Source: Rhododendron vialii (Eukaryota; Streptophyta; Magnoliopsida; Ericales; Ericaceae). From it: 64,000 bases of DNA. Numbering within the stretch: the stretch's first letter is position 1; every line of letters begins with the position of its first letter. Below, piece by piece: positions 12,900 through 62,252 of the stretch. Both the position numbers and the translations under genes were made by a program. The notes under the pieces were generated by a model. That model worked only from the letters and a program-made list of their open reading frames with translations. It did no database searches and had not been told where the DNA came from. The DNA is taken from contig NC_080558.1 of the NCBI RefSeq assembly GCF_030253575.1, positions 320,001 through 384,000 of the forward strand, given 5' to 3'.

Positions 12900-14302
12900 T
12901 GCTTCTAGAGGTTTTGGCTGGAGTTTAGGGAAGAGGAAGACCAAGCCAGAATCAACAAAATGAGCCTTTCCCTTTCAAAACAATTAGCACGACGTCGTTT
13001 GTTATATCGTTCAAGGCTTAAAGGATCAGCCCAAACTCCAAACCAAGATTATAACAATTCGGCCGAGCTATTTGTAACCACAAATTTTATATATGAAATT
13101 TTTTTAAGTCTAACCCTCAAATTTTATAACAATTTTCTATATGTAACCTAACAAATATTCATGAACTTTCTAAAATATCCTTCCTTATCCAAACCTAATT
13201 TTTCCCCAAATTTTGAACTCCTCCCCGCCACCACGCCACACTTGCTTCTCTTCCTCCATAACCACCACCATGCCACACGTGCAACACCAGTTTTATTCCC
13301 AACCATTCACCACCAAAACATTTCACCAACACAACACCAACACCAACACCAACACCAACACCATAAAAGGTCGACATTCTCTCATATCTGCTCTCGTTTT
13401 CTCTGTAATTCTGCAACCGACCTTCATGCGACCACCAACAATAACCCTTCTTTTGATCCACCACTGCTAGCACGATTCCCTAACAAAAGGTTTGCACCGG
13501 ATCACATCGGACCCACCATCCCCACCTCCTTTTAACACCACCTCTTTTAACAATTTCATTGGATAAATTAGTCCTCGTTCTACTAATGAAATAAGTACTT
13601 ATTTTTGATATATTGTGAGAGAACGATATGCCTTGTAAAATAAAAAATAATTACTTAAAAATTAAAAATCTTAACGAAACGGGGTTATTGGTTAGGTAAA
13701 AACTGACCAAGCCAACGATGCTTTCAAAACTTAAACTAACAAGCCAATACTCCCAAGAGCTTTCACTTTGGTACGTGTTTGCTCTTTACCCCTTTACAGA
13801 CCCTATAGACACTCCCAATGCGTCAACCACACTCCCTATCATATCCTTTCCCATGGAAACATCCACAATCCATTCGGTGTGCTTGATAAAGATCGTCTAT
13901 TTAGATTGTGTTTTTTTAAATTTATAAGTTTAAAAGTTAGTTCGATATTTTTTTATTTTTTGTAATTTTTTATTTAGTTTTTAATTATAATTTTTAGGAT
14001 TAATCGTTCGTCTTGAACGATGTTGAAAAGTATAAATAAAAAATATAAAAATATGGACCGATATTGAAAAAATTCAAATAAGACAACACTTTAGACAAAT
14101 AAGACAGCGATTTGATACTTTTTTTAATCTTTTTTTTATCTTTTACAATTTTTTACTTTTTGAACTGTTTTCGTCCGTATCTAACAAAAAACCGAACAAA
14201 ACACACAAAACTACAAAATATATATACTATATATTTACAAGAATAGAGATTGCTCGTATCCCGCGAAATCAAAGATACGAACTTTGCCAGACCCACTTCA
14301 AG
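12861..14302. other. PFD3 promoter side and intergenic DNA
   Basis: Begins with a GA microsatellite (about 12868-12894) in the PFD3 5' UTR/promoter area. A CACCAA-type microsatellite at about 13324-13362 produces low-complexity His/Gln or Thr/Asn reading frames that are not credible genes. From 13900 to 14230 the DNA is AT-rich and featureless. Confidence 0.5.
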
Positions 14303-14587
14303 ATGCCGGCCCTCCCACCGGAGATCATCACCGACATACTGTCGAGACTACCGGTGAAACCCCTCCTCAAGTTCAGGTGCGTATCTAAACCATGGTGTGC
14401 CTTAATCGACAGCCCTTACTTCATCAAAACTCACCTTAATCGTTCAATACAAACCAAAACCAATGTTAGCCTCGTACTGTTTCACATTCACCCACTCTCG
14501 CAAAAATCACACATATACTCCATGGACTCGGACTCGATCGAGAAAACTGTTGTCCTCGATATCCCGGTCACGTCTTTTGAGCATTAT

Positions 14588-14959
14588 TGACGCAGTGGAA
14601 TTCACGAGAGATTAGTTAGCGTACTAGTCCAAACGAGATAAACAACTCGTTGCAACAAGCAAATCTTGCGCACAAGAAAGAAAGAGAGAATCTCTGAATA
14701 TTATTGATAAAAAGCTTAAAAGTTTTAATAATTGAATAATTTACACCCCTATTTATACTAGTAGGAGTTCTAACAATAAGGTAATTACTTAAAATGGAGA
14801 CCAAGCAAAACAATACTTGAAAACAAAGACTAACAAAATTAAAAAACTAATAGGAATATGCCTAAACAAGTGGCATTAAAAGGAAAATTCCTAAAACGAA
14901 TAATTCCTAGAATAAAGTTTCCATAAAATTGAAATTTCCTAAATTTTTGTCCTACATCA
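14588..14959 (-). repeat. 3' LTR of the gypsy-type relic
   Basis: 372 bp, TG...CA ends, paired with 16236-16607. Confidence 0.85.
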
Positions 14960-23470: not shown

Positions 23471-23894
23471 TACGTAATGTACACGTGATTAAGGTGGTTT
23501 GCTTAGGGCATCTCTAGTGGGAGCTATTAAGAGTCACTACAACAAATTTGACATTTAATAGCACAAGTTTATAGCGTTTTTTCGGCCATGCTATCGTAAC
23601 CCAAGCTTTTACACTCCAAAACGCTATGGAAAAAAAGTCAAAAAACGCGAACAACTTTTACAGCATGTATTCTCTTCCATAGCGTCTGAGAGAGAGGAAA
23701 AGAAGGCGCTGAAACATTTCACTATCCCGCGCGATACAAGTCAAATCTATCCCCAAATCTTTACCGATTGGGTTTTTCTGGAGTTCTCCTTCTACCAAAT
23801 CAAGTGGGTTCTTCTCCTCGTTGGCAGATTTTTTCAGAACAGGTTCTGTCGCTTTCATCTTCGTCTTCGAGTAGGATAAACAAATGACTCTTGA

Positions 23895-24128
23895 TTTTGT
23901 TTCGTTCTAGGGTTTACCCCGTTTTGTGGCGAAATGAGGATTTTATGATTCATGGGCCTAGAAATAGTCTCTTGATTTCGTATCTAGGGTTTACCCCTTT
24001 TCGTGTTGAAATTCGGATTTTATGATTCATGGGCCTAGAAATCGTCTATTGATTTCGTTTCTAGGGTTCACCCCGTTTTGTGGTGAAATTTGGATTTTAT
24101 GATTCATGAGCCTAGAAATAGTTAAGAG
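23895..24128 (+). repeat. three tandem copies of a ~80-bp unit inside the CACTA element
   Basis: Units share TGATTTCGTxTCTAGGGTT, CACCCCGTTTTGTGGTGAAA-like text and ATTTTATGATTCATGGGCCT. They lie just downstream of a possible untranslated leader at the left end of the element. Confidence 0.85.
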
Positions 24129-25571
24129 TAATTTATAGATTCGGCTGTGTATGAATATCTTGCCCCGTTAGTTTCAGGAATAATCTCTTTTTTGGAGGGA
24201 ATGTTTTAGGGCTAATCTTGATGGTTTAATCTCCTAGTTTCTTCAATCCACATTCCTTACTGTAAAGCAACAGTTGGTTTGTAATGTTATTTCGTCCTTC
24301 ACTCATGTGTTGGAACTTGGAAAATGGATCACCACATGTTCTACTCTTTTGTGATTGGTTTACTTTCCAGTTCCTACTTATGTGTATTCTCCTATCAACG
24401 CTTTGGCTCATAATATCAATTTTCTCCCTTCCTTTGTTTTTCTTTCATCTCTCTTCCCCTCAGAGATGAATACAATGGAGGTTTTGAGATCTTTTAGAAT
24501 GTAGGAGGGTAGATTATTAGTGCCTACCGTATTTTCCTTCTATCTTATGTATTCTGTAGAGGGCTCAGTTCGATTAGTTTGTTTCGGCTTTCATCTATTT
24601 GTTTTTTTCATGCTTCGTTTGGCAAGATTTATAGGTATATTCCTTTAATTTCAATTTCTGTCAACTCCTGTAGAGGGTTCAGTTTGATTAATTCGATCGT
24701 TTTGACTTTGGTGTATCTATATGTTGTTGTTCTTCAAATGCTTGAAATACATTTTCTTGTTATTTTGGCTCAATCTCTTGTTTAGAAACAAGGGTAAACG
24801 CAAAGAAAGAGAATGTTAGGCTTTCTAATGCAACATGTTTTCTCTGTTCCGAAATGAAAAAAGACCTCCGTTATTTTTTATACGAAAACTAATTTGAAGT
24901 TTTGGATATGTTTTGCTACTGGGTCATAAGTCAGTAGATGACTTTGTATGTTTCATTTTTTAGTCAAGTGTTATGATTAGAGATATGAAAATGGTGCTCA
25001 AATCATTTGAATTGTTGGTGGCTTCAAAATAAGTTATCACAAAATTATGATTGCCTAATGAGTTTGTGGACAATACAAATAAAATCCTACGTACAAAACT
25101 GGTAACTTACCCCTTTCATACTTGATTTCGTAGAGAATTGTTAGAGACCTTGGGCAAATCCATAACCATAACAAGGGGCTAATCCATAACCACGGGCCTT
25201 GCCCCTGTCCAGCTCACTAGTTTAAACTTTAAAGTGGAATGATCATTGTCAATCGTCATTTACTTGGTATAGTCACAAGGTTATTGTTTGTGAGCAATGG
25301 TTGGCGGCTTGGCCTCTATGTCGGCAGCCAATACCTCAATTTTTGTTAGATTGAATTGCCCAATTAGTTGGATTATTTATCACATTATAATGACGGAAAC
25401 ATAGGTTGACACAAGTTTGTCAAGATCCTTTTTTTGGATATCATACTTCTGCATAATTATTTGGGTGCTCCATAGTGTTGATTATGGTGGTCTTATCAAA
25501 GTCTTCTCTTTGAAGTCGTATGCATGTTTTGATACGATAACTAGTTTATTCTTTTATCTAATTGGTGCACC

Positions 25572-25625
25572 ATGGCTCCTATTAAGGACGGATTGCATGA
25601 GTTCCGCCGCAAACAAAAATCAACT
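25572..25625 (+). other. possible short exon of unknown origin in the CACTA element
   Basis: An ATG in a good context (CACCATGGC) opens a short basic reading frame, MAPIKDGLHEFRRKQKST, which ends directly at a consensus donor GTAAGTGAGG. I do not recognise the protein. It could be the first exon of an element gene or part of another captured gene. Confidence 0.3.
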
Positions 25626-27259
25626 GTAAGTGAGGACAAACACCAACACCAATGTGTATTAATGTTAATGTACCTTAGTATTTTCTCTTTTCTTTGTTTT
25701 GTAATAAGATTATCCACTTTCCATTTTCTTGCTAAATCTTCATTGGAAGAAAAAAATTCCTTTATCGTGTATGCTTTCGATATAAAATTGATCTATCCGT
25801 GTGCTCTCACCCTTTGTGTATTTCGGCATGCACCCGAAACTCTAGCTCAATCGGTTAATGTGGATGATTAGTGATACCAGACTAGTTGACTAACTCATAG
25901 CCGTACTCATAGCTGCTTTTAGCCGTATTTTAATTTTGGATGTTGCTGTTCTAACTTAAATTTTAGAAGTTGTTGTTGATGGTCTAAGACTCTAAATCAT
26001 GTTTGATTGGTAGTCCATCCTAGTAAACCATGCACACATAGCAGCCAAATGATAATTACACAGCCTTTGCTCGTGTTTTTTCTTCAGTAAACATAACCGC
26101 ATGACAGGGCTATACTATCTAGTTGTTATTATGCAGTCAAATGATGGTTCTGATGTTGTCTCTTACATAATCTAACCCCCATGTCACGCAGGAAGTAATT
26201 GCAAATGTTCCACAAAGCAACCCGAAATGCATAACCGTGGAGTTTGCTTCCTACTCTGTAACTAAAATGTCCTAAAACTGTGACTTTCGATAGCGTTTTC
26301 TGACTTTGCTTTTTTCTATGCTTGATTAAGATGATTACATTTACTATGCTTGGAGCCTGGTAATTAAATAGTCAAAAGAGTATTGGTTCGGTTGGTCCTA
26401 CTCCAAATTATGTTTGATTGGTAGTCCACTTGCATCTGAGTGAATCTTGCTTTTAGGTTTCTAATTATGTGCATTATATTCTCTTAAGTTGTAGAATATA
26501 AATGCCGGAATAGAAATTTTGTGGTGAATTCTCTAGACAATGAAAAGTTGTTACTAAAATGTCCTAAAACTATGACTTTCGATATTGTTTTCTGGCTTTG
26601 CTATTTCCTATGCTTGGTTAAGATGATTACACATATTATGCTTGGGGCCTAGTAAATAGTCACTCCTCAAAAGAGTATTGGTTCAATTGGCCAACTCTTT
26701 TGATGTAATTGGTTGTCATGGCTATTGTGGAGGCAAAGGAATTCGTTTCAGTTGGACATAGACTATGATAAGTAAGGTGTTACCTGCCTGATTCACTTCT
26801 GTAGAGAACTAGATGCTATTATATTATAATGAAATGATATGTCTATTTATTTAGAATATTTAGCCTGAGAGTGGATTAGTGCTTATATTAGTTCCCTTGG
26901 GGCCTATGGTCTCTAGTCTTGATTAGTCCCAGGTATCATGGAGTAAGGCCTTTAGGGTCTCAAACTGGGGCAACAACTCGTGAGGGCTATGACTGCGTTC
27001 TTTCACGATATGATGCATGCCCCCATTGAAAAATGGGAGGTTTACGTTGAAGTCCAAGACGAAGATTCTTTTCCTCCCTTCTGTTAAATTGTCTGCATAA
27101 AGCCCACCATACTTGCTACACAGCCTATGGTCTATGGTGTTGTATAGGGTTTCTGCTACTATACATTTGATCCCTTTTCTTTCTGATTATGGTGATTTAT
27201 TTTGGTTTCTGAGCAGCATCTTATGCCATTAGTGCTATATTTATATATTCATGTTGCAG

Positions 27260-27809
27260 TTGAAATGCGAGAGATGTGGAGAGGTGACCCAGAAAGATAC
27301 GTGTGTTAGTTTGAACGAAACAGTTGCTCTGCCTAGGAGTACCACTAATCTTGTTCAGAACATGACTTTCTCTCTCTCTCTGTGCGTGTGTTACAATTGT
27401 GTACTGACTTCTCAGTTTTCTTTCTGAATGTTGTTCTTATTGTGAGAAGCATGAAAGTAGACCCATTTGCTGAATGTGGTGATGTGTAGTTCTGTCCCCT
27501 CCTGCCTCCTGCCATCTCCCTTTCTACATTGGAGATCCTTACGACTTACATCTACTATTGTACTTCATTGTTTGTGGTTTACGTGTGAAATTATTATGGT
27601 CCTATCTTGAATGATATCTTTTTTCTTTTGTTTTGCTTCAGTGTAAGTTCTGTGGGAGAGAGGGCACTGTGTTGATGGTCATTGGCCGTGGCCGTCCACT
27701 GACCCACGCACTAAGTCAATCAGGACAGTATGCGCCCCTAATGTTGTTTGACTGTAGGGGATATGAGCACGTGGAATTTGCATTTGGCAGTGGTTGGAAA
27801 GTGGAATCT
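27260..27809 (+). pseudogene. captured exons of a CXXC zinc-binding protein (DUF866/CZIB, UPF0587 family)
   Basis: Exon a (27260-27360, after TTGCAG) encodes LKCERCGEVTQKDTCVSLNE and then TVALPRSTTNLVQ. Exon b (27642-27809, acceptor CTTCAG, donor GTAAGTG) encodes CKFCGREGTVLMVIGRGRPL, then SQSGQYAPLMLFDCRGYEHV and FAFGSGWKVES. Together they give the two zinc-binding CxxC pairs and the central FDCRGxE motif of this eukaryotic family, a small protein of about 160 residues whose role is poorly known. The N-terminal exon and the last exon (usually containing the YDEKG segment) were not found. The donor after exon a is not GT and two residues after ALP are missing relative to the family. Frames are otherwise open, so capture is fairly recent, but the copy is incomplete. 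It lies wholly within the CACTA transposon. Confidence 0.85.
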
Positions 27810-29160
27810 GTAAGTGTCTGATTGCTTTAAATCTCACTCCTTGTTGGACAGGAATGTTATTAAGTTACAATTTACCTCTTGAAGGAAAAAAAAGTAGTTA
27901 AAGTTTAGCTTTATGCTGTTAAGATGCATAGCCCTTTGCCTTCAAACCTAGCATCTATCAGATTAAAAGAATTCTGCTCTTTACGTTGAATTGTGTATTT
28001 CATTAGTTATAGTTGGAATCATCTAATGAGTAGTTTTTGGAGTTGGGAAAAGTACTAAGTCAAATTTATTCAACTCATACTTGTTGTGGTGTGCTGATAT
28101 TGCAATCCCGAACTATGAATTACATGCAGGAAGTGAATTTGATATTGAGTGCTGAAAAATAGTATTTTTGTTTAGATAAAGAGTTGTAACATGATATTTT
28201 TGTTGCTTAATAGTTAATATACCATAGTTGCTGAAATGTGCTGACTGCTGAAATTGTAAAGAGAGAGCTAGAACTATAGACTAAGTCTTGGAGTTTGACG
28301 TTAAATGCTGAAAATGGGTTAGTTCGCTGGATATCGAGATGAACTACTAAAATGGAATGTTTTAGAGCATTCAATGTTAGTTACTGGCTACATATTTGTC
28401 GAATAGTACTATTATCTTAACCACCATGGTCCATGTTGTCATTAACCAACAAAACCGCCCCAAAAAGGAAGATGAAATCCCAAAGCCTAATAGTGCAATT
28501 GTTTTTTACACTATATACTGTAATGTGTTCATTGTTGAGATTAGTCTTCTTTGTGGGGCAGTGGGCCTCACCTCTTATCAAGTAAGTCTCTCAGCCGATA
28601 TTAGGGACCAAGAAGATTTTTTGAGCCTCCCACTGAAATTACTTTCAGCCATTGATGTACAAACAGTGCTCTTCCCCTCTCTTTCACCTCATATGGTGTA
28701 AAGGTAGCAAAAACAACCTCCGAGTAATTGTGTCAGCAAAAGTCGAAAGAGTTTGAGATAGCAATGGTGAATAAGTAGAAACTAGGTTAGTTTACATCCA
28801 TGTATCTGCCCACAATAGTTTTTTTAGAATGACATTTTGACTACCCATAATCTTGTTTGCTGCCTCTCTGATCTTATAGGTCTTTTTAGAGATACCAACT
28901 CCATTTTTTGCTGCTGCAATAATACCAAAACAGATGGGTGAAAAACTCTACTAGCCATCAATCATGCATGAACCAATTTACTTTCCACTCCACAAGTCCA
29001 TATGGTTTATGCTAGAATGTACTTAGTTTATGTGAACACCATCTGAGATCTTCTTAGAAAAGGATTGAACTTACCTTTTGCCGAAGATGGAGACATTGGT
29101 TGGAATTTAATTGAAGCTTTTGCTCTACTGGCTAACTCCTTTTTTGTATCAAGACATGTA

Positions 29161-29340
29161 CAGTACAACAAATTCTACATTTTATAGAATCTAGGTACAG
29201 TGTTCTTTTGAAAACGCTATCTATTGTGGTCCATCTATAGCATTTTTTTACGGAAAAGCAATAAATTATAGTACAGGAACAAAGCTTTGCACTTTGATAG
29301 CGTTTGCTGGACTTTGTCATAACGTTCAAAAGCGCGACCT
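29161..29340 (+). repeat. internal CACTA-like terminus
   Basis: CAGTACAACAAATTCTACAT followed by TTTATAG resembles both outer ends of the element, and subterminal-type motifs (AAAACGCTATC, GATAGCGTTTG, TCAAAAGCGCG) follow. It suggests a nested or composite element of the same family. Confidence 0.6.
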
Positions 29341-31584
29341 GAAAAAATTAGAAAAATTCACGCTCGCTCTCAAAGCTGGGCCCCACAATTTTCATGGGTT
29401 TTTTTTAATTCCCCAAGGTGCTTTCTCAGACCTAATAGAGGATAGAGGAGCTTTTCTCTCTACAATCTAGCCAGAGGAAGCTTTCCCCTTTGTTTCTCGA
29501 TATGTTTCCGTAGAGACTAGAGAGTTTGGTCCTCTCGTTTCTTCCGTTGATTCTACGGTTGGACTCTCAAACGTCCTTCATCATCTTGTTTTTCTTGTTG
29601 ATTGTTGCAAAATGGTTTTGGATTTTCAGACTCTTAATCTTCTTATTTCTCGTTGATTTTCTGCAACATGGTTTTGAATTTTCAGATAGATCTGGCGATT
29701 TGGAGTCTCTGATGATGAAATCGACTTATCCAGATCCAGCTATTAGCGATCTGCGCCACTTGGTGGTTTTTTTTTACAGGTCTGTTCCTCAACCACTCTG
29801 TTGTGCCCCACTCGGTTGCTCCGATTATAAGACCGCGATGCCACTAACGTGCTTCTTCAACGAAGAATTATCTTGTTGGATTCGTAGGTACGTCTCTCTC
29901 TCTCTCTCTCTCCTCTCTCTCTCCCTCATGGCTCAATCTTTGCAGCCCTTTTTCACTAAATAGCTTGTTTCCGATTTAATTGCGTGATTAATTGTAATTC
30001 TCGATTTTGATTAATTTATAGCATCTCTTGGATGAGTGGTTTAATCGAGATTCCTATTGATGTTGGAGTATTGTTCTACCTAAATATTATCGCTTTTTTC
30101 TTAGTTTTGTCACAAGAGTAAGTGCTAATTCTTCATTGAAAGAAACTGTTATACCTGTAGTTGAAATGCAACTGAGGGTCCTTGTGAAATCTAGATCTAA
30201 ACATTGATGATATTGACTAGAGAAAAAATTTAGCAGATGCTTGAAATGTTTGGTGAAATGAGTTATAACTTATAATCCTTTTAACTTTTTTTGAAAAACA
30301 AAAGAGGAAGAGATGGGTATGGGTATGGGACCAATTGGCACTTGAATCCTTCCTTTTTCACGTAATAAGAAACCTTTTCACATATCAATTTGGTGAACCA
30401 GCTTAGATCTCTTCCTATATATGTTTTGAAGCACCAACGGCCTTTTTAGACTGGGGTTTAGCCCCTTAACAGATGATCGTATGGTATCAGTATAACTAGA
30501 AGAAGGCATATAGCTTGTTTGATTTTTAAAATTCACATATTTGCTGCAGAAAGAACAAGAGCCCTGCACTCCCGTAGATTGAGTACTAATTGGACTGATT
30601 ATAGGTATCAAACATAGATTACACGAATTTGGATCAGTTTGCATTTGATTGATGCATTATGCCCGGTACCCTTTACCGGAGCGGAGTTTCTTATCCTGGA
30701 CTCTCAAGGATTGAGTAGTTTGGTATATATGGTTTGCCAATTGTTATCCTTCATTTTGCTAAGATATTTGTGATGAAGTTGGATTCTTTAAGTTGGATGC
30801 ACTCTTTTTTTCTTAATGATCTTGGTCTAATGGCTATCATTAGCTATGTGATGATTCTAACTTGTTCCCCACCTTCCCACTATTTGCTTATGTTTTAGCT
30901 AAAAGTTTAAGCTATTGCTGTTAATTTATGGTAATCACTTGGTGATAGGTATATGGTAAATATTCCACTAATTTAAATTAGATTAAATTGCTATAATGAC
31001 CTAATTGGCACACCTATTATACTCCATTTAGAAGCAGGCTCGGACACTCTCTAACTATGGTGGAAGAGGAGCATTCTACAGAGCTAGGCTGCTGCATTCT
31101 ACCTTGAATGAGTTCATGAGAATCCAATAATGCTGCTTTGATTGAGGAAGACAAGTGATTAAGCATCATAATTCATAAAGTATGTGAGTTAAACAATTCA
31201 TAAAGTATGTGAGTTAGACAAGTGGAAAGTCTTTTTGTTGATATTTAGTGACAAGGCTTGTACTCCATTTTTGGGATACATAGATATTTTGGAAGGCCTT
31301 TTTGTTGATATTTGGTAACAAGGCTTGTACTAGATAGAAATGTTGGAAGGACATTTAGTATATTGAATTTCTTTTGTAATGGTAATCGCTTTGATGTTTG
31401 GAGACATTTTGTTGGTTTTGTATGGAATATTGTGAAATATATTACCAAGGATGTCATTGGAGCCGCCATCTTCTTTTTTCGAGCAGGTTGTATAAAGTTA
31501 TGAAACCTGCTAGAAACTACTTGGAATTTGAAATGCTGTAAAAAATTAACAATGGACAACGGGGCGAAAATTTATGGTGAATAA

Positions 31585-31980
31585 TAGAAAACCTTGAATT
31601 TACAACGTTCCTTGAATGTTGTGGAAACTTTTCAATTTATAGCGTTCCTCAAATGCTGTGGGAAATTTTCAATTTATAGCGTTTTTAAATTGTTATAAAA
31701 ATTTTACAATCTATAGCATTTTAAAAATGCTATAGAAATTTTACTATCTATAGCGTTTTTAAAATGCTGTAGAAAGTCAATCATACCATAGCGTTTTAAA
31801 AACGCTGTAGAAAGTCTGCCATATTATAGCGTTTTAAAAACGCTATCTAAAGTCTACCATATTATAGCGTTTTAAAAACGCTGTCTAAGGTCCAAGACTT
31901 TTAACAACATCGGCTAATACAGCGTTTGCAAAAACGCTGTCTATATCATTTAACAGCGTTTTTCAAACGCTATAAAATGT
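31585..31980. repeat. CACTA subterminal palindromic repeat array
   Basis: About a dozen units of the form (T)ATAGCGTTTTxAAAACGCTG(T) in both orientations, spaced roughly 35-45 bp. Such arrays are the binding sites of the element-encoded DNA-binding protein (TNPA) in En/Spm. Many units are self-complementary (GCGTTTTAAAAACGC). Confidence 0.85.
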
Positions 31981-31996
31981 AAATTTTCTTGTAGTG

Positions 31997-32152
31997 AGTG
32001 CGTTAGTGCAAGAAATTATCAGCTTTAATTTTTGCAGTTAACTAAAGATGTGTAGAAAATACCTTCTAGTGGGTTTGGTTAAGCAATACTAACTGTTCGA
32101 ATCAGTTAGTTGTTGCTAGAAGCAATACTAACTGTAACCACACCTCTAGTGA

Positions 32153-32187
<35 letters not shown>

Positions 32188-35100
32188 GAGAGGGAAAAAA
32201 GAGCCTGCTGTGTTAGGCAAAGTGAGGAGAGAGAAACAACTGGTTTGGGGGAGAGAGAGGAGAGAGAAAGAGTTTTTCATACTTTTTATATTACACTACC
32301 ACTCATCTTAATTAATTACACCACTACAACACACATTCACTTTTTAAATTTACACATTATTAACAAACAATAAATAGGACCCACTTTATACACTTTATGT
32401 CATATAACACACAATTTTTAATCAAACCCTAAAGATGCTCTTATATGGTTAATCATTTGACAATTTGAATTTTCTCAAACCAGTCCAATCCGAGAGCGAT
32501 AGAGCGTACGTGTTGTAAAAGTGATAACCACATAATTACCTGAAAATCTTCTTCTGTAAGCCTTAATTAGTGACATTTGTTCTTTCAGATACATGAAGAG
32601 AGTTTAGTGAGGCCGGGCTTAAAAAAGGTTTGTGGGGGCACTCAACTGCTAATTAATTAACCAAACTGATGCAACCCCTTTAGCAAACACCCCCACTTTG
32701 CCGAACCCACTTTATTACTTCTCCGTCGACTGTGTGATGATGGGATATATATATATATATATTAATGGCCGGCCTGGATTATTACTTCGATCATGTCATT
32801 CATTATTTGGGATTGTGATAATTAAGCTCCAATTGTTACTTATAATCAGTTGATTTTGATTCCGGCCTTATCAACCCCTAATTGCTCTTTGGGTATAATT
32901 CAATTATGATGATTAAACTCATCATATATGTAGTACTCATGTTGTCAAATTAATTAAGGAGTATATTGGCCGGCTAGGCAACTACTGATCAATTTCTGGG
33001 ATTTCCGGCGACCGTTAGCTTCATTTTTAAAACTCATTGGATGCCAGTGTGGAATTAATGCATCCATTATATGAATAATATTTTTTCAATCAAAGAAATA
33101 TTTCAACAATTCCCATGTTTGTAGATATATCTCCCAAAAAAAAAAAAAAAAAAAAACCTTATTACTATCATTATGCTCCATGAAAACGAACGTTCCAAAG
33201 AAAAATTCAGATGATCATTCTATCCTTTTAAATTTCAGTTGAGTAGTTTATTTCTAAAAGCATTAATTAATTAATTGACTCTTTGTGAAGCAAACTTATG
33301 TGATTGCTTTTTCTTGTCTCTCTCCTAATTGGTTTACGTAATTTCGAAGCTTTGGTTTTAAAGCATGTTACAGTGTGCGACAATAGTAAAGGTGGCCATA
33401 TTTATTCGAATGATTAAAACTTGTCCTCTAATTCAAACTAGTTAGCACAAAGGCGCTATCATGACAATCGAATAATGTATGTTTCTCCCGAGGATAATAT
33501 TTTAATTTGATGGGAAGCCCGGCCTATTGAATACACGTAAACTTATAAGTAGCCTCAATAGTTTGAAATAAGTACCGCCATTTTTCTTAATCTGCGACAC
33601 TTATTGGTACTATTTTCATGCACATCCATACAAAAAAAGAAAGAAAAAAAAAAGAAATAGAGGAAATGGTCAGATATCATTTACTAGTACCTAGTCAGAT
33701 CAAATTTTGTTTTAAGAGAAAAAGACAAGTAGTATTATTTAAAATTATACATCTGGTTTTTCTATTAAATTTGTGGCTTTAATTAATTATCGGTTGCATG
33801 GGTTGCATGTCTATTTCCATGTTTAAATGTACATGTGCACATGGAACAAAGCGGACCCCACTGCTGACTTTTTGAAGCTAACCTCTTGCATGTGGTCCTT
33901 AACTTTACTGGATCATCAAGCAAAGCTTCTCGATCTGGCCGGTTAATTCTTTTCCCAAAACAAAACAATTAACATTTCCTACTGATCATCACCTTTCAAG
34001 TGGATCTGCATGCCTCGGGTACTGGCTCGTGGTAAACAAGGAAAGCTCACACGTATATGTATGGAGTATCATATCATATCATATCATAAGGCCGGCATAA
34101 AAGATCTGCTAGCTAGCTGCGAGCGATCGATAGTGATAGTTAACCACTTAGAAATAAGATCACCATTATCCGGTATTATATCCGATATTGATTACTACGT
34201 GATCGATCATCTTTGCAACGAAAAAAATCGAAAGTCACATAATGGGGATCTCGAATATCTTGCGGACTAAACAAGGCACGGTACGACATGACATGCGCAT
34301 GTCAACAACGGACTAGGCAACACAAGAGGTGAGATGTGCACGTCAATATATAACAAGGCAAGGAATGACTTGAACTGCTTGTTACCGAGCTAGGCATGAC
34401 ACCACATCTCAATTATGAACCAAAAATGTAAAAAAAGTGATCGAATCACTATGTTGTACAAACACAGTAGCTAGATTTGCATGTCGATCCTTCGTTATTT
34501 GTGACTGAATTAAACTGGAGATATAAAATCAGAATGGGAACAATAAGCCACGTGATATATGGCCCACTTGTTGATCATTCTAGCCGAGGTTCTATTCCTA
34601 CAACGTTGGTCAATCGGCCAAAATATCGGAACTACGGAGGAATCTACCTCCCTCATCGTTGGATTCACCTCTTCAAAGACTGAAGAGCTAAAACTGTCAC
34701 TCTCACTGTTTTTTCTTTTATTTTCAGTGACTTTTTTCTGTTTCTTTGTCAAGATAGAAGTGCAAGTATGGTACTACAAAATGACCTTTACTAGGAACTC
34801 ACACCGCAATTTGTAAGGAATCTCACTGCATCTAGAACTGAAGCTAAAGTAGCACTGGATACGAAAACTCGAACATGCATGTGCCTTGTCCAACCAAGTC
34901 CAAATCTCCTTGATCCGCTAGAGAAACCCCTCATTTCAGTGATTGTTTTACATGGCTGGAAGTGGCAATTTAATGCAGGAATGCCACCGACAGAAAACAT
35001 AGCGGAAAGAAAAGGGACTCGGTACGAGTTGATTACTCCCTCCGTTCATGAAGTTAGTTTCGTACAAAATTACGTGCGATTTTCAAGTTTAAAAAGTACT

Positions 35101-35630: not shown

Positions 35631-35851
35631 CAGTACAAGAAAAAGTATATTTGCTGACGATAAACAAAATTTTCGTTAGCAAAAGTTACTGTAGGGTGAC
35701 AAAAACATGCTATAGGTGACGAAAAAATAACTTTCAGAGACAACTTATAGTAACTTTTGGTGACGAAAATTTTGTTGTTTTGACATATATTGTAAAAATT
35801 AAATTTCGTCACTATTTTTTTTGGTCAACGCATACATTTTTTCTTGTAGTG
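35631..35851. mobile_element. CACTA-derived MITE
   Basis: A 221-bp element starting CAGTACAAGAAAAAGTAT and ending ATTTTTTCTTGTAGTG (reverse complement CACTACAAGAAAAAAT). It is flanked by the triplet CTT on both sides (35628-35630 and 35852-35854). The interior has several GGTGACGAAAA/TTTTCGTCAC-type repeats, a different subterminal motif from the large CACTA element, so it belongs to another family. Confidence 0.85.
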
Positions 35852-46072: not shown

Positions 46073-47930
46073 ATTTTTTTTTTCACGAAAGACTGGATGA
46101 TTTTATTAAGAGAAAGAGTGGTCTAAGGACCGAACATCATCACGGGCAAGACTAGCGAGATGTTGGGAGATAGAATCCCACCCCCCCACCCAACACTTCA
46201 GTCTAACACCTAATAGGGAACGCTTAACCAATGAATGAGCTACTCTATTACAAAAACGCTTAACATGAATAAAAGAACAAGATGAAAATAAAGAAAAAAG
46301 TTCTACACAATCAGCAAGAATAGAGTTACAATCTGAGAGAGACTTTCCATCTTGAATCAAAGCCTGAACTACCTGCACCGAGTCACCTTCAACAACAATT
46401 TCAGAAGATCCTCTATTAGCCGCAGTGACAAGGGCTTCACAAAATCCCAAAGCCTCAGTAGAACGTGGCGATAAGAAACCAGCAAAAGGAATCAAAATAG
46501 ACCCCAAAATTTCACCAAAATGGTTCCTTGCTACAATACCCACACCAGAAATGCTATTCTTCTTATTAACTGCACCATCAACATTAAGTTTAATAACATT
46601 AGGTGGAGAGGGAAGCCAGGACAATGGGTGGGGGGGAGTGGAGAGTCTAGGGAGGGAATAGACCGTTTCGGTAGCTGCCTTGAACTCCTCATATAGGGTG
46701 ATCGCTTTTTCAACTGTAGCAGAGCAAGTTTCGAACTTTTTATCAAAGTACACAGTGTTCCTACCCTTCCATAACATCCAGCACAAAGTGGCTAAATAGC
46801 ATGGAGATCTTTTACGCCACTAGAATCACGAACCGATTGGACCACACTAGTCCACCATTCAGTAAATGAGAGAGAATCCAAGGAGGGTGAGACTGCATTA
46901 GCAAAGGGGGAATTTTCCCACACCTCCTTCGATGATTTGCACTGAAAAATGAGATGATCGATAGTTTCAAATGTAGAATTACACCTTGGACAGTAAGGAG
47001 AAACATCAATCTTCTTCTTGAAAAAATTAAATAACACCACAAGAGCGTTGTGAGAGCATCGCCATAAAAATATTTTAATCTTGTTGGGAACTCGTAAGGA
47101 CTAGATTAGTCTCAAAATACCAACCTTTAAAGAGCCTGAACTGGATTCTCCTCTCTCTCTCTAGAGTTATGCGGAATATTGCTGGATCTCGTCAAGCGAT
47201 ATGTCGATTTGACTAAAAATAAACCATTATCTGTATAATGTCATACCCTTTTATTCAGAGCACCTCGGGAGCTAATTGGAATAGAAAGAATAGCTTCCAC
47301 ATCAATATCAGAAATAAAGTCTTGATTAAAGGGATATTCCAAGAGTGAGTTACCTTATCAATAAGATCAGAGACCGAGTGACACAGTGATAGAGAGAATC
47401 CACTGGCGGGGGGAGACTAAGCACACGGAAGTTAAGTGAACAGGGAAGCCAAGAATCACGCCAAATACTAATAGCTTTATCATCACCAACGCACCATCTC
47501 CACCCTTTTTGCAACACTGTTTGACCCACACAAATACTCCTCCAAGCCCAGGAGGCTGACTTTGGGCAGGAGGCCTCCCAAAAAGAGGAATTATGAAAGT
47601 ATTTCCCTTTAAATAAACATTGCAACAGAGAACTGGGGCCATTAACCAAATGCCATCCTTGCTTAACAAGAAAAGCTAAATTGAAATAATGAAAATCACG
47701 AAAGCCAAGCCCTCCTTGCAATTTACTATCACAAAGCTTATTCCAATTGACCCTATTGATTTTGTTCTCACCTTCTTTTGAGCCCCACCAAAAGTTCCAA
47801 ATCACAATGCATAAGTCCTTGCATACTCGCTTTGGCAATAGAAAGCATTGCATGATAAAATTGGGCATCGTACGTAATAGCAACAGATTTAAGCATGGTC
47901 TCTTTCCCAAGATCCATATAATTTTGTAAA
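46073..47930 (-). mobile_element. 5'-truncated L1-type LINE
   Basis: Three protein-domain stretches on the minus strand follow the order of a plant L1 ORF2 C-terminus. First, 47910-47350: the region after the reverse transcriptase (WNFWWGSKEG, GGLGFRDFHYFNLAFLVKQG, WRWCVGDDKAISIWRDSWLP). Second, 47085-46792: the zinc-binding reverse-transcriptase domain (VPNKIKIFLWRCSHNALVV, CPRCNSTFETIDHLIFQC). Third, 46786-46106: RNase H. A T tract at about 46072-46083 marks the poly(A) tail on the plus strand. The polymerase core and endonuclease are absent, so the copy is truncated at its 5' end near 47930. Between about 47090 and 47345 no frame is recognisable. Inactive. Confidence 0.88.
46106..46786 (-). 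pseudogene. LINE RNase H domain (RVT_3)
   Basis: An open stretch of 226 residues with NVDGA (first Asp), STEALGFCEAL (Glu), VEGDSVQVV (second Asp) and CNRVAHSLVKRSL, the conserved positions of plant LINE RNase H. It is the C-terminal part of the LINE polyprotein, not a separate gene, though its length and intact motifs show the insertion is not very old. Confidence 0.85.
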
Positions 47931-48962
47931 ATTTATTCCTAAAATTTAAAAATTAAAACAATTTATATTAGGCATTTCAACACTCTTAATACTACATTTA
48001 TACTTATTTGAGATACGAATATATATGTTGCACAATCCACATGTTGGTGTATATATGTATGTATGATGTATTGAATTGTATAAATCAAAACCATTTTCAC
48101 ATAAAATTATTGCATATGTTTCGATAAACTTATGGAACTTAGCATTTCCAAACAAAAAATGGAACCAATGGTATAAAAAAAGAAGAAGAGATTTTGGCAC
48201 TCCATTTTTTATGATGGCACTCCAAAATTTGTATTTTTGTGTAAAAATTACATATAACAAGACACACTAAAAGACAAATTTTAAAGTGCTATCGTAAAAA
48301 ATTAAAGTGCCAAAATCATTTAAAAAAAAAAAAACCCTCCGATATATATGCCACCGAACCCTGACCTGGAGGCAGGGGAAGCTCTTCTATTCTACCATAG
48401 TCAACTGCTTTTCCAATAACACAATCGAAGTTAGGGATCCGGATGGCAGAAGGGCCTCCCAATTCGCTAACACTTTCACATTTTGCCACCCCATTTACAA
48501 GCTTTACAAGAATCTCTCATCTCATATCATATTTATAAAAGAGAGAAATGACAGTAAACAAAAGTGGCCAAAAAATTACTACTAGTAATAAGGATCTTGA
48601 ATTGGAGCCGGTCCATTCAAAGACATCCCACGATCTTCCAGCTAGGGGTGAGTCATCAAAAATTCAAGAAGTACATGAGCTAATTAATTTCCAGCAAAGG
48701 TTTTATCCAATGTCGCCAACAATCATTTGAATAATTACTGCTCCTACCTGGCAGGAAAAATTTAGACCAAAAACAACCTTTGGCAACTGTGCATTTCTTC
48801 GATCACCTTATGCCCTCCTCAAATAAATTTAATAAAATTGCACATAAATTAATCCGAATATTCAATTATCAAACAAAACAAACAAAAGGAACCAAAACCA
48901 ACGCCCCAAGACCTCATTTTCCGTCATCATTCATGCCGTGCTCATTCATCATATACTAACAA
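47931..48962. other. 3' flank of the CP1-like gene, no other gene
   Basis: AT-rich; the part nearest 48962 should hold the 3' UTR of the EF-hand gene. Confidence 0.45.
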
Positions 48963-49412
48963 TCAGACGGCCAAAATCTTGAGAAGACCGTCAAAAGTCA
49001 CGCCTTGGGTTTCATCACCACCGCCCAATTTGATCATCGCGTTGATATCCTCATCGCTAGCATCATGAAACCCAGCCCATTTCAGGTAGCTCTTGAGATC
49101 CTCATGCCCGACCCGGCCATCTCCATCTCTGTCCATAACCCGGAACGCCGCCTCCATCGCACCGTTACTCCTCAATTCCAAAACCCCCTCGAATTCGTCG
49201 TACTCCACGTACCCGTTCTCGTTCGAATCCGCCGCCGTCATCATCTCCCCAATCACGTCCTCCGATGCTCCCCCTCCGCCGCCGTAAACCTTCCGGAGAT
49301 CATCGCGGCTTATCTTGCCGTCGTGATCCACGTCAAGTACGTCGAACGCCGACCGCAAGTCGGACCGGGATTCGGCGATCTCGGGGCGGAGAGCGGTCCC
49401 GGTTGGACACAT
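48963..49412 (-). CDS. EF-hand calcium-binding protein, AtCP1-like
   Basis: An intronless gene for a 149-residue acidic protein. Canonical EF-hand loops are seen at 28-39 (DVDHDGKISRDD) and 94-105 (DRDGDGRVGHED). A third loop at 62-73 (DSNENGYVEYDE) also keeps the liganding positions. The fourth is degenerate (around GGGDETQGVTFDG). The N-terminal MCPTG and C-terminal MIKLGGGDETQGVTFDGLLK resemble Arabidopsis CP1 (about 160 residues, reported as salt-inducible) more than calmodulin, where the linker and ends differ. It is expected to be a soluble calcium sensor that relays signals to unknown partners. Codon third positions are GC-rich, unlike the flanks, as for many intronless plant CML genes. 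Confidence 0.9.
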   Translation of the reverse strand: MCPTGTALRPEIAESRSDLRSAFDVLDVDHDGKISRDDLRKVYGGGGGASEDVIGEMMTAADSNENGYVEYDEFEGVLELRSNGAMEAAFRVMDRDGDGRVGHEDLKSYLKWAGFHDASDEDINAMIKLGGGDETQGVTFDGLLKILAV

Positions 49413-49543
49413 TTTGTGGGGGTTTTTTTTTCTTCCCGAAAAGGTCGTAAGGTGCTTGTATACTGGCTCCGAAACAAGGGTTGAGAGCGGTGATATATGA
49501 AAGGTGTATGTAATGGATGGTGTGAATGTGAGGTGGGTGGAGG

Positions 49544-49552
49544 CTATATATA
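49544..49552 (-). promoter_or_regulatory. probable TATA box of the CP1-like gene
   Basis: CTATATATA on the plus strand (TATATATAG on the gene strand) lies about 135 bp upstream of the ATG, which leaves room for a leader of about 100 bp. Confidence 0.55.
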
Positions 49553-49560
49553 GATAGAGC

Positions 49561-51590
49561 CAGAGGTTGAACCTCCAGCGTTTATGGGTCCACCTGGGGA
49601 AGACGGTATCAAATCAAATGACTTTGTGCTCCACGTTGGTAGGAATCGGCGGGTGGGTCGTAAGGGGTGACGTAAAATTACTCGTTGTGAAGGAAAATGT
49701 CAAGCTAGCGTATTGTAATGAAGTTTATTCATGTTGCTCATGCCATATTTTATCCTGCAATTTTTTGATACATATACTTCGGCCCGTTCTCTTCGATTTA
49801 ACTTAAATTTAAGATTTTTATTTTTATTTAAATTTTTTTTTGCATTTGTTAGATTTGTGCCAAATTTTTTTAGGTTATTGATTCGTTTCGATGGGAGGAA
49901 TTGAAAAAATAATTTTTTTTTTTACTTTTACCTAAATATTTTGAAGAAATAATCATTTTTAGCAACGGAAAAAAAAAATATTTTTGCAAATACTACCGGT
50001 TAAAAAAAACAGAAAACAACGATACAAACAAAATGAAACAAAAAAGAAAATCCGCCTGGTAGGCATCATATGCATCTATGTATTTGATTGGGTTCGAACC
50101 TCATTAAATAAATACAACTAATAATGCTGCCTTTCATCGAAAAAAGCCATATTGGTACCTCATTCCGCATGCTCAATATAGCATTCAACACAATATTGGA
50201 TGCAAATTAATAAATCCCACACGCTTATTGGTGTACTTTTGTATGTGAAGTACATGCATGATCGATCACCTATTATTCGACTGTACAGTACAGACCAGCT
50301 ACCAAACACACATATTTATTTCTTGTGATTCTCCTCCATTAACTTGCATGTGCCCGGCCACAATGGGTTCAGATACTAGCTTGCTAGCTAGTGTCCAAAG
50401 AGCATCATTTTTTGGTTCCAAGCATCCGAAGGGAATCATTACGTAGGAGACAAAGGTCCTTAATTGGCATTGTTTACCAATACTCAATAGAATACAAAAT
50501 GGTTGTTGATTTTGTCACTTCTTTTTTTGCTAACGTCACTCTCATGTAAGTGTGTTTTTGGTGCAAAAATAAATTTGCAGGGGAGTAACGTTAACAAAAA
50601 AAGAGAGTGGCAAAATCATTTCCTTACAAAATTTGATATTATTGCGATAATGGCTAGTTAGCTATTAGTTCGTTAATTAAAAGATGCCCTACTGTAATTC
50701 ATTGCATGCCTAAGTTTTGTGAAACTCATACCAAACCGTTATGAAATTCCGTTATGTAATTCCGTCGTAATTAACATTATAAAGGTCATCTCAATGCAGA
50801 AGACTTTCAATTATAGCTTAAAAGTGGTGGTACAGGTATGGACTTGATGGCCACTAATTTTGAATAAACAAATTGATTTACGCTTGCCATGACGTTGGAG
50901 AATTCTACCATGACGCATTGGAGATAAACAGATCTTGATATCACAATTGTGTCCTAATCAAGTACATTTGCAATTGTGGATCAAAAAAAAAAAGTACATT
51001 TGCAATTTAACTACTTGTTTGGAACTTAGAGAAAAGAAAGAAAAAAAGGAAAAGAAAATTTTGAAGAAAGTGTGGAGAAAAATTTTACAGTTCTGAATTC
51101 TTTGTTTTTTTTTTTTATAAATTTTCTTTCCTATTTCCTCTCTAATAAAACAAGGGAAATTATTTTCTTTACTGTAGTTAATCCTTTGTTTTGTACAATA
51201 TATGTTGGAGGCTAAAAAATGTGTACACATAGAAATTAGCATTTTGTTGAAGGAGCAAAACACTTTATTTTATTTTATTTGCTAAGTAAAAAGGTTGAGA
51301 GAAGAAGGCCACAGTTACAACTCTCCTCTAGAACGAGAGGGACTTGCAACCACCATAATATATTGAAGGAGCAAAACTATTTGAGCACCAAAGTATATAT
51401 TCCCCATTTGATAAAAAAAGAAGAAGATAATTAGAGGCCGGTCCTCCTTTCTAGCCTCGGTATGATCCCAACCTTGAAATATTTTTCTGAAGCTGGAGGG
51501 CTCGGGTATGTTGGGTGATGGACGTTTTTGCCCTTTTTCGGGTTTACTATATATAGGCTTGTTTTCAAAAGAATATTGACGGAGAGAGAA
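49561..51590. other. intergenic, no gene recognised
   Basis: AT-rich with several homopolymer T or A runs (for example 49910-49925 and 51105-51117). Nothing coding is supported. Confidence 0.5.
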
Positions 51591-60326: not shown

Positions 60327-62252
60327 TCAGCTTATCTCATTACAAACTTCTCTAATAACACCTTGATTCCCAGTAAGAACACCAGAAGAAGACAGCTTAA
60401 CAAATGCAGAAGAGAAAGCCTGAAAGAACCCATCCCGATCGGACGCGAACCATTGGACAAACGGAGCCGTTCGCGGATCCAGCGGCATCTCTGCATCGAC
60501 CCTCAGCACTCCACGGCCTCTCATGGCATTGTCATAGTATTGGTTGTCAAAAATGAGTGTAGTTGGGTCGTTGAATACAAAGCTAGTGTTTGGTGTCAAT
60601 GAGCCCAGTGGGCAGCCCGATCTTATTATCAGGTCCAGACCAGGTTCCGCAGCAGATTTGGGCTTTCCTGTTTCTGGGCTCTGGAGACGGCTTAGGATAC
60701 TTTCACAGTGACTGATTCCTAGTGTGTGGCTACCTGCATGCAAAAGGCAAAAGGGTAACGTATCAAGGTCACAAATCACCTGTTTGTCAATGACTTGTCA
60801 TTCAATGGTCCGAGACCACAAAACACAACTACGCAAATTTCGACCTAAACACTGATGTTGGTCACATGAGAAAAAGGTAGTATCTCCAGATTTCACTTTA
60901 ATGAATCGAAAATCAACAAAAGTGAGTTGTGTCCGACTCAATTAAATAGTTTTAGGTTGGACAAGACATGGCACTAATGTGCAAAAGAAAGTTTTTATGA
61001 TATTGCTTGTGAAAAAAATGTATGCAAGAGGATTTCATGCCACATATATACCCAAAATGGCCACAGATTCTTCAATGGTCATCCCATGCTTGGCAAAAAC
61101 CTGAAGCATTCCATCAACTCCGATATTTCCAGGAGGAAGCAAGGCATCAGCAAGTTTATAGCTTGGAGGGGAAATGGAATCCCTTCTTCCCAATGGAACA
61201 ATTACCAGGGGTCCTCCGGAAATCACTATCGCCTCCCGAGCAGCCAAAATGATAATGTCAGCACAGGAAACTTGCTGGGGACACGCCTCCTCCACCATTG
61301 ATTTTATTATGCCAATTGACTCCCTCTCTCGGACTCCAAAATTCTTGGATGAAGCCATCTCGGATTGCGTGGCTTGGTCATTTGGGTCAAGTAGGATAGA
61401 TGAATCACAGCCCTGCGGTCAAAAAAAGATATTTCAAACTTATGTTTGTATCATTGGCAATTTGGGCGCTAGCCCTGTTTGGCTTTGTTTTATTTATTTA
61501 TTTTGATTATAGCAAAATGTAAACAATAGAAGTTTGAAAAACATGCACGTTTTCATTTTTGCCCTTCACTGTTTTTCATGCATTTTGGAAAATGAAACAG
61601 AATTTTTTTTGAAAACCATGACAAACAGGTGTTTTGAAAAGCAGAAGACAGAGAAAGTTTGGCTCCCAAGGTGAAGCTTAAGGCCATAATGCAGCTATGT
61701 GGTTCACTTCACTAAAATGAAGATTAGCATGAAAAGATTAATCTTCAGTTTAGACGTTTGGTTTGGTAAAAGTTGATGTATTGTAGCCGAGGAAAAAAGA
61801 AGAAGTTGACGTACATTGTAAATGGAATCATCATTCATCAATTTAAGAAAAATGACCATTCTATGCTGATGAAATGGCCATTCCATTTTTCCCAAAATCA
61901 TTCCAAACCGAACACTACTTAGTTACTTTTGACATATATGCAAATGGGACATCCGTACATAGGTTTTCATTTTTACATGATAACCTGAGGCTAGCTGAGG
62001 ATGACTTGGTTTGACACAGAGAGAGAGAGAGACCTGAACTTGGCAGTCATGGAACATCAGCCTTAACAGACCAGCAGGGGAAGTTGGATCAGAGAGAGTC
62101 ATGGACTGAACTCCATCGCTAACGATGTCCTCAACTTGAGGGCATGTTCTCTCATAGAAACCATAACTAAGTTTCCCTCCTTCAACCTCGACCCAAAATG
62201 AAACCACAAATATCACTCCACATATTGTATTTCTCAAGCCCATATTTCTCAT
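60327..62252 (-). CDS. class III peroxidase, peroxidase 29-like
   Basis: A secreted haem peroxidase of the plant type, oxidising phenolics with hydrogen peroxide in the wall or vacuole. Three exons join to 328 residues: 62034-62252, 61052-61412, 60327-60733. A signal peptide covers about 1-25. The mature part starts near KLSYGFYERTCPQVE. The distal catalytic site is GLLRLMFHDCQVQGCDSS with Arg64 and His68. VSCADIIILAAREA follows, and the proximal haem ligand is His196 in GSHTLGISHC. The C-terminal part contains FDNQYYDNAMRGRGVL, and conserved Cys residues are present. Introns 1 and 3 of the classical four-exon gene are in their usual places (after HDCxVQ and in the LGSHT codon), but intron 2 is missing, giving one 361-bp middle exon. 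The wording of several motifs is closest to peroxidase 29 from memory. Confidence 0.93.

Follow-up and report, generated by a model that had tools for sequence, protein, structure and literature searches.

A CACTA element with two captured CZIB exons in Rhododendron vialii, probably a mosaic of the Pack-CACTA type

Introduction

Previous work on gene pick-up by cut-and-paste transposons has proposed both the fusion of neighbouring insertions and the faulty repair of breaks (PMC8903248, PMC8978399, PMC3260210). Pack-TYPE elements, Pack-CACTAs among them, are non-autonomous, have inverted ends and carry coding DNA that they have picked up, in some cases at more than one locus, and the definition of Gisby and Catoni 2022 (PMC8903248) does not require that the captured DNA has multiplied. 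For Pack-CACTA, a 2026 review gives a tandem-insertion model (PMC13317346). In soybean, the 5.7-kb CACTA element Tgm-Express1, which lies in intron 2 of F3H, holds five gene fragments from unrelated host genes that retain introns and whose exons are spliced into transcripts (PMC1947982). Maize Ds2 elements with filler DNA have had their interior replaced from elsewhere, and one of them holds a gene fragment with an intron, captured from DNA (PMC3260210). CACTA elements of Chenopodium are reported to contain host gene pieces upstream of a transposase gene, for which the authors invoke abortive gap repair, the mechanism of Rubin and Levy (PMC8978399). Here we describe a CACTA insertion that contains two exons of a DUF866/CZIB gene, found in a 64,000-nucleotide stretch of Rhododendron vialii, called the window below (contig NC_080558.1, C2:320001-384000 in our notation); the host genome comprises 532.6 Mb in 13 contigs.

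We consider it quite probable that the insertion is a non-autonomous mosaic element of the Pack-CACTA type, its host DNA captured in gap repair and its 3' end supplied by a related copy. The element falls within the Pack-TYPE definition of PMC8903248, and the altered inner end described below is foreseen by the Pack-CACTA model of the same paper. It departs from that group in its length of 8.46 kb, in that no second CZIB-bearing copy was found in the genome searches, and in a patchwork of short pieces that goes beyond neighbour fusion alone (PMC8903248). Like Tgm-Express1 (PMC1947982), it is a CACTA element whose host fragments retain introns, but here there is one recognisable coding gene together with scraps, and the insertion lies in a repeat. 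Maize Ds2 (PMC3260210) shares the replaced interior but belongs to the hAT superfamily, and the Chenopodium elements (PMC8978399) share the host pieces but are reported to carry them upstream of a transposase gene, whereas no transposase domain was found here in the six-frame Pfam scan. Literature listings gave nothing that ties DUF866 to transposition, only an unrelated paper on ticks for CACTA and eS17, a second gene considered below, and nothing useful on CACTA elements of Rhododendron.

Borders and ends of the element

The insertion spans window positions 23535-31996. It starts at 23535 with CACTACAACAAA and ends at 31996 with TTTTCTTGTAGTG, so that inverted repeats of the CACTA...TAGTG form characteristic of CACTA (En/Spm) elements stand at its two borders. 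The outer 5' terminal inverted repeat (23535-23562, plus strand), which also appears in the inverted-repeat listing, pairs with the 3' end at 24 of 28 bases; among 2,000,000 random pairs of 28-mers drawn from the window, simple repeats included, 8 reached 24. The target-site duplication is AGT, with its left copy at 23532-23534 and its right copy at 31997-31999. When the two flanks are joined with one AGT, they match C8:343307-343654 across the join, uninterrupted, at about 84-85% identity and with a single AGT. This uninterrupted copy shows that the target is itself a repeat and that 23535-31996 entered it as a single insertion, duplicating 3 bp; the borders are settled by the empty site. Elements of the hAT superfamily make 8-bp target duplications. 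The ends, inverted repeats and AGT flanks reported in an earlier note on this DNA thus stand as given there, now backed by the C8 site, and a chance pairing of unrelated ends is ruled out by it. The repeat into which the element inserted covers window 23503-23534 and 31997-32426, and its C8 paralogue runs from 343307 on, in two pieces.

At the right, the 3' end with its subterminal AGCGTTTT/AAAACGCT repeats (31223-31996, plus strand) is 92-97% identical to at least nine other copies, judged on the best 40 of 128 candidates, and contains 16 matches to the subterminal motifs in 774 bp. The left end has 2 such motifs in 266 bp, against a background of mean 0.06 and maximum 2 in 209 window stretches. 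Between the ends, Pfam searches of all six frames of 23535-31996 at E up to 0.1 gave PF05907 only and no transposase domain; the element thus appears non-autonomous, as Pack-CACTAs are, and the coding DNA between its ends comes from a host gene, the CZIB gene on C7.

The captured CZIB segment and its parent

The earlier note had proposed that two exons of a DUF866/CZIB gene were captured at the DNA level and had called for a search for the parent, which we located on the minus strand of C7. In a DNA search in which both of 2 candidates were scored, C7:20110335-20111232 was the sole other match of window 27200-27900; it aligns in two pieces, one 96% and the other 93% identical. When all six frames of the genome were searched with PF05907, three matches came out (6 of 6 candidates scored), two of them to the C7 gene, in its exons 3 and 4, and one to exon 3 of the window, and thus to these two loci alone; neither search gave a third CZIB locus. 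The short exon 2 was missed by the PF05907 genome search and was seen at both loci by tblastn and alignment. The C7 gene has four exons, all open and joined in phase 0: its ATG lies at 20115528, exons 2 and 3 start at 20111172 and 20110585, respectively, and exon 4 ends in ...SNLRSVFNVVK and a stop. The exons in the window are exons 2 and 3 of this gene, so that the first and last are absent, as the earlier note had stated.

The copied block of 879 bp (27137-28015, plus strand; source on C7 minus) is larger than the two exons first noticed within it. It comprises the tail of intron 1, exon 2 (27260-27361; LKCERCGE...LVQN), a shortened intron 2, exon 3 (27642-27809; CKFCGRE...WKVES) and the head of intron 3; both exons lie on the plus strand. 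Capture from mRNA is ruled out, the introns having been kept. Of the splice sites, exon 3 retains its acceptor AG and, as the earlier note had said, its donor GT; exon 2 retains its acceptor AG but has lost its GT donor, the parent reading AAG followed by GTGACT and the window AACATGACT, and intron 2 is 195 bp shorter than in the parent. The stretch present in the parent only, C7:20110701-20110896, has no other match in the genome. Since it has none, it was more likely lost from the copy than gained by a transposon insertion in intron 2 of the parent, though the parent may instead have received a unique insertion. PF05907 matches exon 2 at E 6.7e-4 (20.0 bits, under the cut-off of 22.9 bits) and exon 3 at E 2.4e-10. 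Profile positions 1-28 and 119-155 are missing and both CxxC pairs are retained; the window CZIB is a fragment, not a gene.

Over 877 aligned sites (27137-28018, including three bases beyond the junction), window and parent differ at 36, of which 25 are transitions, a Kimura two-parameter distance of 0.042. By part, the differences are 4 of 102 in exon 2, 6 of 168 in exon 3 and 17 of 280 in intron 2. Ten of 90 codons are altered, 4 silently and 6 with a change of amino acid. At one of these, where the window has H and the parent P, human CZIB agrees with the parent; at the neighbouring residue, where the window has V and the parent M, it agrees with the window, so that not all change lies in the copy. 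Substitution rates in plants are 5e-9 to 1.5e-8 per site and year. On this single divergence value and these rates, window and C7 copies would have separated roughly 1.4-4.2 million years ago. The open frames and intact CxxC pairs that had been taken as signs of a recent event are thus there, with "recent" meaning about 4% divergence.

At its right, the CZIB block joins CACTA DNA exactly. The parent sequence ..GTTG gives way to GAATC.. of the CACTA DNA, with no overlap, in all three of the CACTA copies that were aligned; the identity of the window with these three relatives starts exactly at 28016, where that with the parent stops.

Mosaic structure of the element

To the left of the CZIB block lies a patchwork of short pieces. 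The first, 26687-26730, is 95% identical to C2:44796275-44796318 (minus strand; E 7e-11) and shares TTG with the CACTA part before it, so that TTG is present in both sources at this first join. The second, 26784-26866, is identical to C9:29385739-29385821 at 79 of 83 positions (E 4.6e-29), and the third, 27070-27124, to C4:1261080-1261134 at 53 of 55 (E 7.2e-17). All three lie on the plus strand of the window, and each matches one other place in the genome (4 of 4 candidates scored). The sources of the host insert are thus pieces of C2, C9, C4 and C7 and not one contiguous host locus. Pooled, the three patches show 8 differences in 182 bp (4.4%), compared with 36 in 877 (4.1%) in the CZIB block. 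The similar divergence and the close packing are what a single repair event in which the template was switched several times could leave, though they are no proof of it. An organelle origin was considered for 27070-27124, whose C4 source has a psaA/psaB-like scrap nearby (23.2 bits against a cut-off of 23.3), but was dropped, as the patch itself overlaps one end of a weak DUF4283 match.

On either side of this host insert the element consists of three units, all on the plus strand. The left part (unit A, 23535-26689) is without Pfam match and largely CACTA-derived: 26007-26689 is 90% identical to C5:17085297-17086002, and 25426-25638 and 25665-25880 have relatives at 76-88% near other copies of the 3' end. 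Its leftmost 601 bp have only piecewise matches elsewhere, the very end over at most 65 bp (best 40 of 50 candidates). In the CACTA interior (unit C, 28016-29160), the segment 28019-28819 matches, whole or from 28054, at least nine places at 87-91% identity (best 40 of 297 candidates), and 28281-29160 is 96% identical to C4:37529915-37530794. The right part (unit B, 29161-31996) ends in the 3' end described above.

Unit B begins with an inner CACTA 5' end (29161-29188, plus strand) that has CAGTA in place of CACTA. It reads CAGTACAACAAATTCTACATTTTATAG, pairs with the 3' end at 23 of 28 bases and has 3 subterminal motifs in the 265 bp behind it, where the 209 background stretches average 0.06 and never exceed 2. 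The C4 relative (C4:37529915-37530797), 96% identical to 28281-29163, runs past the site of the inner 5' end without such an end; because it is continuous there, CACTA copy B seems to interrupt an older CACTA interior. The three bases before the inner end are GTA and not AGT, so that unit B alone did not produce the outer AGT duplication, and the outer 5' end pairs with the 3' end of B. That 30032-30216 of unit B and 25665-25880 of unit A match the same relatives also supports two related units. On these comparisons, two related CACTA units seem to have been fused into one element: either B and the outer 5' end would have taken part jointly in a further transposition, which the fusion model allows for when the inner end is mutated (PMC8903248), or B would have been nested and have recombined in place with the old 3' end. 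The earlier note had held that its reading would fall if the two ends belonged to unrelated copies; this was touched on, in that the ends seemingly come from two insertions, but these were of related CACTA elements. Elsewhere in the window, 35631-35851 (221 bp) is bounded by CAGTACAAGAAAA and TTTTCTTGTAGTG, with CTT next to each end; it is probably a small non-autonomous CACTA element, its left end also CAGTA.

Related copies and apparently recurrent capture

The earlier note had also proposed a search for other copies of the element. Related CACTA copies were found, among them a complete relative at C11:4457667-4466119, with TGT at both sides and the same 3' end, but none with the CZIB insert, neither in the DNA search with 27200-27900 nor in the PF05907 genome search. 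By position, Transposase_21 lies between matching ends at C9:31810175, C7:32856367, C8:20099148, C11:34097979 and C10:23347127; the C9, C7 and C8 matches are without a stop and the C11 and C10 matches have one stop each. Because such large relatives carry Transposase_21 between matching ends, a source of transposase exists in principle.

In the C11 relative, of which three frames of the first 6.3 kb were scanned on one strand, a fragment of ribosomal eS17 was found (PF00833 positions 24-65, E 4.6e-11, within C11:4457974-4458102). No Pfam match was found in the C6, C5 and C4 relatives (three frames each, one strand), so that one of four relatives was positive. Searching the genome for eS17 gave six matches (7 of 7 candidates scored): the gene at C3:8834831 (profile positions 1-118) and five fragments that all start at profile position 24 and end at 65-67, on C3 (two), C13, C11 and C2. 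Besides that on C11, the fragments are at C3:4231288, C13:33953264, C3:2694061 and C2:14866861, and none of the five matches has a stop. By coordinates, each lies 2.0-3.3 kb upstream of a stretch like 28054-28819. In an alignment of four of them, about 190 bp long, pairwise identity is 95-97%, and these four share a short frame, which in C11 starts MKLEDPSVADLEDIYQAP. Borders and target duplication were checked for the C11 site alone. Because the eS17 fragment occurs at five places of the CACTA group, capture seems recurrent, and the group seems to capture repeatedly, with CZIB and eS17 as its cargo.

Origin of the element

The proposed course of events would begin with a break within a CACTA element, for example after excision. 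Repair synthesis would then have copied pieces from several chromosomes, CZIB included, by abortive gap repair with template switching, and a related CACTA copy inside or beside the element would have provided the 3' end. As the 5' end of that copy is altered to CAGTA and the outer 5' end is regular, the outer pair would act as one element, with transposase supplied in trans by the large relatives. The narrower proposal, that the C2, C9, C4 and C7 pieces were all copied in one template-switching repair inside a CACTA element and that a second insertion then gave the new 3' end, we put forward tentatively, as somewhat short of probable. If it is true, the element would be a readable record of gap repair, and not neighbour fusion, supplying genes to Pack-CACTAs, in a lineage that also captured and multiplied an exon of ribosomal eS17.

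Two other routes lead to a similar structure. In the neighbour-fusion model of Catoni, two CACTA copies in introns 1 and 3 of a CZIB gene would have been mobilised jointly with the exons between them. The element does have two CACTA 5' ends, and the change to CAGTA in the inner of these is of the sort foreseen by that model in its "mutation" branch (PMC8903248); CACTA-derived DNA flanks the CZIB block on both sides. But the DNA between the CACTA parts consists of pieces of C2, C9, C4 and C7 and not of one locus, the CZIB block is separated from the inner end by 1,145 bp of CACTA interior, and the 30 kb surrounding the C7 parent gave no CACTA match at E 1e-5, though such a copy could have been lost by excision. 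The patchwork favours template-switching repair over a simple fusion of neighbouring insertions, and we regard the latter as an unlikely source of the captured exons; the same model may still explain the fusion of A and B. For that fusion alone, B may have been nested in A, and recombination between similar 3' ends may have deleted the DNA between them, leaving the 5' end and duplication of A with a hybrid 3' end. Such nesting accords with the break that B makes in DNA continuous in C4, and with outer flanks that match (AGT/AGT) where GTA precedes the inner 5' end. It is possible but on the whole doubtful, given that the end-like motifs of the window include none that would be left over from A's own 3' end, and it leaves the gene capture unexplained. 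That the ends are those of unrelated CACTA insertions paired by eye, with the CZIB exons an ordinary segmental duplication, has in its favour the two 5' ends inside the interval and the seemingly different insertions that gave the outer 5' and 3' ends; with AGT at both sides, an uninterrupted C8 paralogue with one AGT, and CZIB sitting between CACTA-derived parts, it is extremely improbable.

Several observations weigh against capture by gap repair in a mobile mosaic, which we nevertheless prefer. The genome searches gave the composite at this one site only, so that mobility after capture can at most be inferred, and capture could have occurred in place after the insertion. About 268 of the 447 bp of 26690-27136 are without a source in the genome search, in which all 4 candidates were scored. 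Given the shortness of the patches, the places they match could be degenerate repeats; that of 27070-27124 on C4 overlaps a DUF4283 match, a weak one (18.1 bits against a cut-off of 27.2) and on the opposite strand. The 2 subterminal motifs of the left end are equalled by the highest of the 209 background stretches. No close relative of the 5' end of unit B was found: apart from the window itself, only 29645-29800 was matched, at 75-82% (5 of 5 candidates scored), and either of the two candidate processes may have joined units A and B. Finally, the genome searches score only the best candidates, and absences in them are lower bounds.

As to function, 356 of the 859 21-mers of the captured block match the parent exactly; for exon 2 the count is 27 of 82 and for exon 3 it is 58 of 148. 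This being the length of small interfering RNAs, any that the copy gave rise to might in principle base-pair with the parent transcript. The captured exons might act on the CZIB gene through small RNAs or antisense effects, as the earlier note had suggested, or be used in a chimeric transcript, as the spliced exons of Tgm-Express1 are in host transcripts (PMC1947982). Both CxxC pairs and the open frames have also been kept. But with the donor of exon 2 lost, the terminal exons missing and 6 of the 10 changed codons nonsynonymous (ten being too few for a selection test), we see nothing to suggest that the CZIB copy is functional. Of 81 inverted repeats listed for the window, the 25 longest have no arm in the captured block 27137-28015, and no host gene is shown to span the insertion. 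We therefore think either function very improbable; in all likelihood the copy is a passenger in decay that has no CZIB function. Little follows for CZIB itself, the four exons of the parent being open.

Shuffling of gene pieces by transposons is already known, and here an instance of it has been well preserved; what this element adds is a readable patchwork, an empty site and an identified parent. With parent, empty site, junctions and several sources all readable for one capture, it offers a testable case.

Other features of the window

Ordinary plant gene parts were recognised by Pfam elsewhere in the window, namely F-box at 14036-14590 (plus strand), EF-hand at 48963-49613 (minus) and peroxidase at 60327-60797 (minus). 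On the minus strand, an RVT_3 domain (Pfam) lies at 46106-46819, and a frame at 47350-47952, without Pfam match, resembles reverse transcriptase by eye only; together, 46106-47952 is probably the remnant of a long interspersed nuclear element.

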